DNA from: Staphylococcus sp. Marseille-Q5304
GTDB taxonomy: Bacteria; Bacillota; Bacilli; Staphylococcales; Staphylococcaceae
Assembly: GCF_943737015.1 (NCBI RefSeq)
Contig: NZ_CALSFP010000001.1
Location: 496,001-560,000, forward strand
Direction of reading: 5' to 3'
DNA: 64,000 nucleotides
The first letter of the stretch is position 1; each line of letters opens with the position of its first letter. Under the pieces are notes generated by a model, which worked only from the letters and a program-made list of their open reading frames with translations, did no database searches and was not told the DNA's origin. This document shows, in pieces, positions 6,998 through 52,739 of this stretch. A program made the translations under genes and the position numbers.

Positions 6998-8257
6998 ATG
7001 GTTCAAGAAGTGATTAAAATTAGAGGTGGTCAAACACTTAACGGTAATGTGGATATCCATGGGGCAAAGAATAGTGCAGTAGCAATTATTCCAGCAACAA
7101 TTTTAGCAGAAGAACAAGTGACTATTGATGGGTTACCACAAATTTCAGATGTAGAAACTTTAGTAAGTCTATTAGGTGATTTGAATATTAAAACTGATTT
7201 AGATGGAACAACGCTTAATGTGGATCCAACTCAAATTGAAAATACTTCATTGCCTAATAATAAAGTAGAATCATTGCGTGCATCTTATTATATGATGGGC
7301 GCATTGTTAGGTCGATTTAAGAAATGTGTGATTGGCCTTCCAGGTGGCTGTCAATTAGGACCAAGACCAATTGATCAACATATCAAAGGTTTCAAAGCAT
7401 TGGGTGCCACAATTGATGAATCAAGTGACTCTTCAATGAAAATTGAAGCAGAAAAGTTAACAGGCGCTAACATTTATTTAGATATTGTAAGTGTTGGTGC
7501 AACGATTAACATCATGTTAGCTGCAGTTCGCGCTGAAGGACAAACTAAATTAGAAAATGCAGCAAAAGAACCTGAAGTGGTAGACGTTGCTAACTTCTTA
7601 TCTAGTTTAGGTGCCGATATTAAAGGTGCAGGAACATCAACAATTAAGATTAATGGCGTTGATCGTTTACATGGTTCTAGACACCAAGTTATTCCTGATC
7701 GTATAGAAGTAGGAACTTATATGTGTATTGCTGCAGCAAGTGGCGAACAAATGCGAATCAATAATATTATACCTACGCACGTAGAATCACTAATCGTTAA
7801 ACTAAAAGAACTCGGTGTAGATTTAGAAGTCGGAGAAGACTATGCTGTAATAAATAAAAGTGATGCGTTCAACAGTGTTGACATCAAAACGCTAGTTTAT
7901 CCTGGCTTTGCTACAGACTTACAACAACCGATTACACCATTATTATTCAAAGCAGATGGTGTTTCATTTGTAACAGATACAATCTATCCTGCACGTTTCA
8001 AACACGTGGATGAATTAAAAAATATGGGTGCAAATATTGAGGCTGATCAAGGCACTGCAACAGTTAAACCTTCTACACTAACAGGTACTGATGTGTATGC
8101 AAGTGACTTACGTGCTGGTGCATGCTTAATTGTCGCTGGATTACTAGCTGAAGGCGTAACGACGATTCATAACGTTAAATATATCCATAGAGGCTATGCA
8201 AATATTGTTGACACATTAAATGGATTAGGCGCAGATATTTGGACAGAAGAAATTTAA
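6998..8257 (+). CDS. murZ: UDP-N-acetylglucosamine 1-carboxyvinyltransferase, MurZ paralogue
   Basis: The 419-aa enzyme transfers enolpyruvate from PEP to UDP-GlcNAc, the first committed step of peptidoglycan synthesis. The fosfomycin-target Cys118 sits in [10 protein letters not shown]. The inverted alpha/beta repeats of the EPSP-synthase fold are visible in the recurring GA-I-DVETL and LGAxI segments. Low-GC Gram-positives keep two paralogues; the position after fba marks this one as MurZ (MurA2), the other being murA at 29690. A strong AAAGGAGAA site precedes the ATG. The qsrR promoter begins right after its stop. Confidence 0.95.
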
Positions 8258-8265
8258 AATCTATG

Positions 8266-8304
8266 GTATAATAAGTATACTCTAGTTAAGATACATGTAT
8301 CTTA
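8266..8304 (+). promoter_or_regulatory. qsrR promoter/operator: GTATA-N5-TATAC plus second palindrome
   Basis: GTATA (8266-8270), five bases, TATAC (8276-8280) form a perfect inverted repeat. The -10 TATAAT (8267-8272), extended by an upstream TG, lies inside it. As I recall, GTATA-N5-TATAC is the operator of the S. aureus repressor QsrR. A separate 18-bp perfect palindrome, TAAGATACATGTATCTTA (8287-8304), follows. The layout predicts that the product of the next gene represses its own promoter. Confidence 0.7.
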
Positions 8305-8332
8305 AAAATTATAGTGATATGAGGTGATTACC

Positions 8333-8656
8333 ATGGAGGTTTGCCCTTATCTAGAAAAGACCTTTAAAATTTTAGGGAGAAGTTGGAACGGTCTTATCAT
8401 AAATTATTTATCTAGATGTACAGAAAGATCTGCGCATTTTTCAGATATGAAACGTGATTTAAAAACAATAACGCCACGTGCACTTAGTCTCAAGTTGACT
8501 GAACTTAGTGAATGGGGACTCGTTGAAAAGAAGATTATTTCTAAAAGTCCATTGAACATTTCGTATCAATTAACTGACAAAGGTTATGCATTAGCTGAGG
8601 CGCTCGTTCCAATTGAAGACTGGGCACACGATCATTTGGATTTGGAAGAAAACTAA
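8333..8656 (+). CDS. qsrR: HxlR/YodB-family quinone- and electrophile-sensing repressor (QsrR-like)
   Basis: A 107-aa winged-helix HxlR regulator. The N-terminal MEVCPYLEKTFKILG carries the family's sensing Cys (Cys4); the recognition region is FSDMKRDLKTITPRALSLKL. In S. aureus QsrR the sensing Cys is modified by quinones, releasing DNA. A second Cys (Cys29) is present, but the third cysteine I expect from the S. aureus protein (position 32) is Arg here. The start is ATG 8333 behind AGGTGA; an in-frame GTG at 8324 overlaps that site. The operator just upstream supports the assignment. Targets elsewhere are expected but not in view. Confidence 0.78.
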   Translation: MEVCPYLEKTFKILGRSWNGLIINYLSRCTERSAHFSDMKRDLKTITPRALSLKLTELSEWGLVEKKIISKSPLNISYQLTDKGYALAEALVPIEDWAHDHLDLEEN

Positions 8657-8674: not shown

Positions 8675-8715
8675 AGGTAGGCCATATTAGTACTTTGTTA
8701 TGGTCTGCCTCTTTT
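8675..8715 (+). terminator. qsrR terminator
   Basis: AGGTAGGCCATA (8675-8686) pairs with 8699-8710 through two G-U pairs, followed by CTTTTG. It separates qsrR from the dehydrogenase gene. Confidence 0.75.
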
Positions 8716-8897: not shown

Positions 8898-10325
8898 ATG
8901 AGAAATTTCACTAAACAATATATTGATGGTGAATGGGTAGAAAGCGCTAGTGGAGAAACTTTAGATGTTATCAACCCAGCTACCGAAGAAGTGGCAGGCA
9001 CAATTGCTAAAGGTAACGAAGACGATGTAAATAAAGCTGTAGAAGCTGCAGATAGAGTTTATGTAGAGTTTAGAAATACAAGTGTCAAAGAAAGACAAGA
9101 TTTACTAGATAAGATTGTTAAAGAATATGAGAATAGAAAGCAAGATATTATAGAAGCAATTACAGATGAGTTAGGTGCACCATTGTCAGTTTCTGAAAAT
9201 GTCCACTATCAAATGGGCTTAAATCATTTCACAGCTGCAAGAGATGCTTTAAATGACATGGAATTTGAAGAAAGACGTGGAGACGATTTAGTAGTTAAAG
9301 AAGCAATCGGTGTAGCAGGACTTGTTACGCCTTGGAACTTCCCTACGAACCAAACTTCATTAAAACTAGCAGCTGCATTTGCAGCAGGTAGTCCAGTAGT
9401 ATTAAAACCTTCAGAAGAAACACCATTTGCAGCTATTATTTTAGCTGAAATCTTTGACAAAGTAGGCGTACCTAAAGGTGTGTTTAACCTAGTAAATGGT
9501 GACGGCGCTGGAGTAGGAAATCCATTAAGTGAACATCCTAAAGTTAGAATGATGTCATTCACTGGTTCAGGCCCTACAGGATCAAAAATCATGCAAAAAG
9601 CTGCTGAAGATTTCAAAAAAGTATCACTTGAATTAGGTGGTAAATCACCTTATGTTATTTTAGATGATGCAGATGTTGAAGAAGCAGCAAAAGCAGCTAC
9701 AAGTAAAGTTGTAAACAATACGGGGCAAGTTTGTACAGCAGGTACGAGAACATTAGTACCTGAAAGCATGAAACAAGATTTCTTAACAGCAGTTAAAGAA
9801 CAATTTAGTAAAGTTAAAGTTGGAGACCCTCGTGAAGAAGGCACAGAAGTTGGTCCTATTATTAGTAAAAAACAATATGACCAAGTTCAATCATATATTG
9901 ATAAAGGTGTAGAAGAAGGTGCCGAATTATTCTTCGGTGGCCCTGGTAAACCTGAAGGATTAGATAAAGGTTATTTCGCTCGCCCAACAATCTTTAATAA
10001 CGTTGAAAATAGCATGACTATTGCTCAAGAAGAAATATTTGGTCCAGTAATGTCTATCATCACATACAATGATGTGGATGAAGCTATTAAGATTGCTAAC
10101 GATACTAAATATGGACTAGCAGGTTATGTATTCGGTAAAGATAAAGAAACATTGCATAAAGTTGCACGTTCTATCGAAGCTGGAACAGTAGAAATTAACG
10201 AAGCAGGACGTAAACCAGACTTACCATTCGGTGGTTATAAACAATCTGGTCTAGGTCGTGAATGGGGCGATTACGGAATCGAGGGATTCTTAGAAATCAA
10301 ATCAATCGCTGGTTATTACAAATAA
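8898..10325 (+). CDS. NAD(P)-dependent aldehyde dehydrogenase
   Basis: The 475-aa protein oxidises an aldehyde to the acid. Standard ALDH landmarks are present: TPWNFP near residue 150, the [11 protein letters not shown] coenzyme loop, general base Glu245 in LELGGK, nucleophile Cys279 in [11 protein letters not shown], and EEIFGPV later. Length and sequence match the staphylococcal gene found at this position after murZ and the HxlR gene. The substrate is not known from sequence; proximity to an electrophile sensor makes a detoxification role plausible, but no GTATA-N5-TATAC site precedes it. GGAGTG supports the ATG. Confidence 0.9.
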
Positions 10326-40991: not shown

Positions 40992-41159
40992 TGTAATTGT
41001 ACACATTTGAAATTAATAATGTGCAAATATTGTATGTAAAGTATGTTTTAAGATAATATTTTGACATTATGACAATATATTTAAAATTTTAAATATTGTA
41101 TGGTAATTGGCTACTAAATAAGGTAATATGGTAGTAAGAAAGAAGTTAGGGGTGATAAT

Positions 41160-52719: not shown

Positions 52720-52739
52720 AACTAAATTATAATTTAGTT
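52720..52739 (+). promoter_or_regulatory. Palindromic -10 region of the putative rsbU promoter
   Basis: A perfect 20-bp palindrome with arms AACTAAATTA and TAATTTAGTT has TATAAT (52728-52733) across its centre. It lies 70 bases before rsbU. The -35 is poor (AATTTA at N17). It could be a promoter whose -10 is also an operator; this is an inference. Confidence 0.5.

Follow-up and report, generated by a model that had tools for sequence, protein, structure and literature searches.

A QsrR-type operator over the extended -10 of qsrR in a Staphylococcus species: a probable and well-supported autoregulatory arrangement beside a species-specific palindrome

Upstream of the qsrR gene of Staphylococcus sp. 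Marseille-Q5304, positions 8264-8280 of the window (i.e., the whole stretch of 64,000 nucleotides that was analysed) very probably form an autoregulatory promoter-operator, where QsrR and RNA polymerase would exclude each other and from which quinones or oxidants would release the repressor. We conclude that QsrR represses its own gene through this putative binding site, and we regard the whole as an ordinary yet well-supported autoregulatory operator. The switch does not include the 20-bp palindrome at 8286-8305. The features of the locus are as follows.

6998 to 8257, forward strand: murZ/murA-type gene of the EPSP synthase family, 419 aa, upstream neighbour of qsrR.
8264 to 8272, forward strand: extended -10, TGG-TATAAT, from the sequence.
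8266 to 8280, no strand: QsrR-type operator GTATA-N5-TATAC, GTATAATAAGTATAC, from sequence, matrix and conservation.
8286 to 8305, no strand: perfect palindrome of 20 bp, TTAAGATACATGTATCTTAA, at about +8 to +27 of the predicted 5' leader, in one species only.
8321 to 8327, forward strand: ribosome-binding site GAGGTGA, 5 bases 5' of ATG 8333, from the sequence.
8333 to 8656, forward strand: qsrR ortholog of the HxlR (MarR/DUF24) family, 107 aa, start ATG 8333.
8675 to 8715, forward strand: probable terminator 3' of qsrR, recognised by eye (a stem of 12 pairs, two of them G-U, closing a 12-base loop, with CTTTT behind it); the terminator scan, which allows loops of 3-8, does not list it.
8898 to 10325, forward strand: aldehyde dehydrogenase gene, downstream neighbour of qsrR.

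Judged by its sequence, the protein encoded at 8333-8656 is a clear QsrR ortholog. Pfam places an HxlR winged-helix domain in it (PF01638, 59.9 bits against a cut-off of 20.8), and the nearest solved chains are those of QsrR (4hqe, E-value 6.3e-51, and 4hqm, 8.8e-50), with YodB next at 2.6e-14. The segment ITPRALSLKL, presumably the DNA-reading helix of QsrR, is identical between the window protein and the solved QsrR. The redox switch of QsrR is described as Cys4 with Cys29' or Cys32' (PMC12893000, in the part of the text available to us); compared with S. aureus QsrR, the window protein keeps Cys4 and Cys29, whereas Cys32 is replaced, so that a pair of redox cysteines is present. According to the accessible part of a structural paper (PMC5314169), S. 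aureus QsrR was solved on a 17-bp duplex with the recognition helices in successive major grooves, a length that suits a 15-bp dyad. The gene order is shared as well, since murZ, qsrR and the aldehyde dehydrogenase gene follow each other at a locus of the S. aureus complex (L182) as they do in the window.

An exact GTATA-N5-TATAC, which we take to be the operator of S. aureus QsrR, lies at 8266-8280, and TGG-TATAAT spans 8264-8272, so that the left half-site and the extended -10 have bases in common; the coincidence of the two that a sequence-only reading had pointed out was thus confirmed. Transcription is predicted from spacing to start near A8279. The exact motif occurs twice in the window (0.09 expected from shuffles), and a weight matrix derived from 18 distinct qsrR operators of other species, the operators of the window species being left out, places 8266 at the top of the window with 20.7 bits, the runner-up scoring 13.2. 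Terminator scans detected no terminator in the murZ-qsrR gap. There is also an alternative promoter-like pair, TTTAAA-17-TATACT, which ends at 8281; we preferred the extended -10 to it as the qsrR promoter, since its hexamer varies across species (the C of TATAC is found in 36/58 genomes with the operator and the following T in 50/58).

The arrangement was then considered across the genus, where qsrR was found in 82 of 84 Staphylococcus genomes and the upstream regions of all 82 were read. A TG-preceded dyad with at most two mismatches is present in the murZ-qsrR gap of 58 of these genomes (28 exact, 24 with one mismatch and 6 with two), in a single register throughout, TG-N-TATA(A/C)T-N3-TATA, and starts 8 or 9 bases past the murZ stop in 48 of them. 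All 58 share the TG, the TATA(A/C)T and the TATA of the right half, the TATA counts being inflated by the choice of operators for low mismatch, whereas the outermost positions vary (G in 44/58, C in 36/58). That choice ignored the TG, except at two TG-less places with two mismatches (L054, taken as S. hominis, and L071), which were set aside and scored as lacking the operator, hence 58 instead of 60. The TG does not belong to the dyad and nothing mirrors it beyond the right half, which marks it as a promoter element, while the right-half TATA lies outside the -10 and is therefore an operator element; the left TATA(A/C)T is part of both the operator half and the promoter. Judged by these bases, promoter and operator functions seem to be conserved separately. 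The named records, which overlap with the genome set, carry the operator in 32 of 41 Staphylococcus loci, and on a tree of 78 distinct rows the operator trait requires 3 changes, compared with a mean of 20.7 for shuffled labels.

The remaining 24 of the 82 genomes keep qsrR without the operator, which implies that self-repression is not essential to QsrR. Nearly all of them (21/24, L076-L096) fall on one side of a tree branch with support 100/99, and their murZ-to-qsrR gap measures just 34-48 bases; in these genomes qsrR presumably rides on the murZ transcript. Within the last 45 bases 5' of qsrR, 11 operator-less genomes (L081, L083, L087, L089-L096) carry GTTATCAC, which could pair with GTGATAAC, GTGATAGC or GTGATGAC, and the partner overlaps part of the ribosome-binding site. 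Translational control may possibly replace self-repression in these 11 genomes, where the fold z-scores go no lower than -2.3 (the highest being -0.1) and L087 has a minimum-energy fold other than this pairing. In a further genome (L075, taken as S. auricularis), a 15-pair hairpin with z = -3.6 occupies the operator region.

A search of the whole 2.28-Mb genome for GTATA-N5-TATAC, as proposed by the sequence-only reading, had a divided outcome: exact copies were found at qsrR, before an LLM-class FMN monooxygenase gene (L002, 17.8 bits) and before ribD (L006, RibD_C in Pfam, 11.4 bits), but the total of 10 places equals that of the reversed-pattern control (also 10), and the bare motif alone thus carries little weight. 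Sites with one mismatch score 16.0 bits before the gene of a glyoxalase-fold protein (L166) and 15.3 bits before a nitroreductase gene (L176). Quinone reductases, a nitroreductase, an FMN-linked monooxygenase and dioxygenases are among the QsrR targets in the available part of one paper (PMC6798810), and riboflavin genes are listed alongside QsrR targets in that of another (PMC7845598). Among the ten exact places in the genome, those before the FMN monooxygenase and ribD look functional. The target classes are not marked by sites as a whole, since the genome's 18 matches to glyoxalase, nitroreductase and flavodoxin-2 include only 2 for which a strong upstream site was found; by the matrix the other 16 have none, three of them scoring 8.6-11.1 bits and not being counted as sites. 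In gene direction, TGn precedes a TATA-type hexamer at three of the four targets (TATAAA in L002, TATAAT in L166 and TATATT in L176) and is absent at the ribD site.

Over the genus, the pattern TGGTATAMTNNNTATAC gave 45 matches against 15 for its reversed control, and 28 of the 45 are qsrR itself. The remaining 17 are no excess over the control's 15, and the proposal that an operator on an extended -10 is a regulon-wide design across the genus was dropped on that comparison; as a predicted genus-wide design, it is shown for qsrR only. Eleven of the 17 were inspected at the locus level, and some of these are followed by plausible genes. Five, all from a simulans-type group, precede a gene of the YceI family (assigned by Pfam in L207), one precedes a glyoxalase-fold gene in the S. 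aureus complex (L210), two precede a small unnamed gene (L187, L203) and three apparently lie inside coding sequence.

Taken together, the identity of the protein, the 58/82 genomes and the same-genome sites at expected targets bear out the earlier proposal of a QsrR-type operator on an extended -10. From the arrangement, its conservation and register, and these matching sites, we infer the following course of events. RNA polymerase would use the extended -10 TGG-TATAAT, a good -35 being absent, and a QsrR dimer on GTATA-N5-TATAC would cover that -10; because the dyad includes the -10, the two would compete to the exclusion of each other. Quinones or oxidants would act at Cys4, jointly with Cys29 from the partner subunit, and so free QsrR from the DNA, upon which its own synthesis would be induced together with the detoxification genes, and read-through from murZ would probably maintain a basal level of qsrR. 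The system resembles that of S. aureus QsrR in its orthologous protein, the same dyad and the same target classes, whereas the extra palindrome in the window leader sets it apart. In the portions available of the QsrR literature that we searched (PMC6798810, PMC7845598, PMC10715087, PMC12893000, PMC6212828, PMC5314169), we found neither an account of a QsrR operator placed on an extended -10 nor one of a ladder in 9-bp steps (see below), a result that applies to these texts only.

The second palindrome had been given as 18 bp at 8287-8304; it is indeed an exact palindrome, but its full extent is 20 bp (8286-8305). By composition it is unusual, yet it is not the sole such element in the window, which holds three perfect palindromes of 20 bp or longer, where base composition predicts 0.13 and mirror-image controls yield none. 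The other two, at 41077-41096 and 52720-52739, lie outside ORFs of at least 70 aa, and the latter precedes an rsbU-like gene (named by eye). An exact copy is present once in its own genome and in only two of the 84 genomes, both of them assemblies of the window species. As a conserved element the palindrome did not hold up: it is absent from relatives that keep the gene, an outcome that the sequence-only reading had itself named as refuting, although the nearest of those examined have a QsrR only up to 83% identical. Our best guess is that it is a recent, species-specific dyad of the leader that forms at most a weak 8-pair RNA hairpin. A private operator or a minor leader hairpin are possible roles.

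We put at a little under an even chance the reading that the dyad is neutral or a product of chance, the leader being AT-rich and free to vary from one species to the next. Leader length (39 to 125 bases from operator to ATG) and leader sequence vary widely across the genus while the operator and the ribosome-binding site stay, and the dyad is confined to one species; such palindromes are nevertheless expected at a rate of just 0.13 per 64 kb, and in 4,252 leader bases from 58 genomes this is the only perfect palindrome of at least 14 bp, present in both assemblies of the window species.

It is conceivable but somewhat doubtful that the dyad acts as RNA, in a stem-loop close to the start of the qsrR transcript that would protect this transcript or tune its translation. 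The predicted transcript starts 7 bases before the dyad, the 8-pair stem belongs to the minimum-energy structure as well as to the centroid, which has -4.8 kcal/mol, and several other leaders carry different small hairpins. The stem is, however, no more stable than in shuffles (z = 0.21), which speaks against an RNA element, and over 55 distinct leaders, a set that includes the operator-less L087 and L093 with a chance TG, the mean z is -0.63 and p 0.05 is reached by 8/55, seven of these in the group with long leaders. An intrinsic terminator or attenuator was rejected as well, since no T run follows the stem on its 3' side and the scans were negative. Rfam searches of nine loci (L004 and eight relatives) returned only two sub-threshold microRNA matches, both in L050 and taken as chance. 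The long leaders form a subject of their own: nine genomes (L040, L042-L048 and L050, taken to include S. petrasii, S. pragensis, S. devriesei and S. caledonicus) have qsrR leaders of 106-127 bases, seven of which fold with z from -1.9 to -3.5. By eye, some of them show a closing stem with subgroup-specific sequence and a hairpin that leads into a run of T; in L048 this hairpin was not among the terminators that the scan returned, and Rfam gave no real match among the long leaders searched.

It is unlikely that a further regulator, specific to the lineage, uses the palindrome as its operator and forms a roadblock there, shortly past the start. The precedent is B. subtilis catDE, which in the accessible part of its description combines two CatR boxes and one YodB box with a Fur box that lies past the start (PMC6212828), and which shares with the window MarR/DUF24 repressors on what would be a multi-box promoter; the downstream box there belongs to Fur, whereas the palindrome has no assigned factor, and the likeness drawn here is one of arrangement. 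A perfect 20-bp dyad is rare by composition, and this one is kept in both assemblies of the species despite a base difference two positions beyond it. With up to three mismatches it matches four places in its own genome, itself included, against one for the reversed control, and one of these (L012, 1501-1518) lies 58 bases before a SarA-family gene, which sits behind the L002 operon with its QsrR-type site. This is the sole hint in favour of the earlier suggestion that another regulator binds here, which otherwise found neither recurrence at other promoters nor conservation in relatives: the own genome has no match at one or two mismatches, the 84 genomes have 11 places at up to two mismatches against 13 for the reversed control, and the palindrome occurs neither in the 57 named loci nor in 80 upstream stretches, each 110 bases long, from other Staphylococcus genomes. 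The 9-9 bp MhqR operator of S. aureus mhqRED (TATCTCGAA-aTCGAaATA, -6 to +12, in the available part of PMC6798810) is likewise an even-centred dyad near the start of a quinone-response gene, but by eye its sequence is unlike that of the palindrome.

That the palindrome is a second QsrR site, as had also been suggested, is highly improbable, for although relatives outside Staphylococcus have two QsrR-type dyads 18 bp apart and 19/58 Staphylococcus operators have a further two-mismatch dyad at a multiple of 9 bp, it differs from the motif by at least four mismatches, nothing downstream of the operator scores above -4.0 bits, and its centre is even instead of odd and lies 22.5 bp from that of the operator, which is no multiple of 9.

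The idea of a second QsrR-family site beside the first does fit those relatives, while it fails for 8286-8305. All 16 non-Staphylococcus loci among the 57 named were examined for dyads with at most two mismatches in the 95 bases before the gene (L154, 98-192; the 95 bases before 2501 in L123, L124, L126-L131, L139, L142, L156 and L158-L161). Dyad pairs were found 9 bp apart in 15/16, 18 bp apart in 14/16 and 27 bp apart in 7/16, whereas each of the other offsets between 10 and 30 was seen in at most 2 loci. Pairs at 9 bp share a TATA and so follow partly from the motif itself, and the shuffle test covers the 18-bp pairs, which arise in 0 to 0.7% of shuffles per locus. Ladders of this kind occur at Macrococcus, Mammaliicoccus, Sporosarcina and Paenibacillus loci. 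A ladder dyad follows TG in 6/7 Macrococcus/Macrococcoides loci (leaving out the distal dyad in L142), 3/3 Sporosarcina loci and the single Paenibacillus locus; this TG is absent in all four Mammaliicoccus loci and in an Arthrobacter-named record. None of the 58 Staphylococcus operators has a dyad 18 bp to either side, and 39 of them are single dyads. The extra two-mismatch dyads of the other 19 lie at -9 (8 genomes), +9 (8), +27 (3) and +36 (3), and at no other offset tested; the window species has none.

These patterns leave room for a speculative reading, which we consider less likely than not: QsrR operators would be ladders of TATA half-sites spaced by 9 bp in which the number of rungs sets the strength of repression, and an ancestral form of at least three rungs (dyads 9 and 18 bp apart) would have been reduced at Staphylococcus qsrR, in most cases to a single dyad that has merged with the extended -10, the weak dyads at multiples of 9 being its relics. 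In the window genome, the glyoxalase-fold and nitroreductase sites (L166, L176) have one-mismatch dyads at 0 and +9 and a three-mismatch dyad at +18, ribD has a two-mismatch dyad at +9, and the FMN monooxygenase site is a single dyad. Since two of the four targets keep more rungs, the ladder reading would have QsrR leave its own gene at a different dose from these two.

On present evidence, the second palindrome is no conserved control element. The operator is missing mainly from one group, which probably relies on the murZ transcript, and the ladder, if true, offers a simple dose-response prediction. The analysis establishes the likely regulatory anatomy of a redox switch across the genus, in one register and with operator and promoter sharing bases in 58 of 82 genomes.
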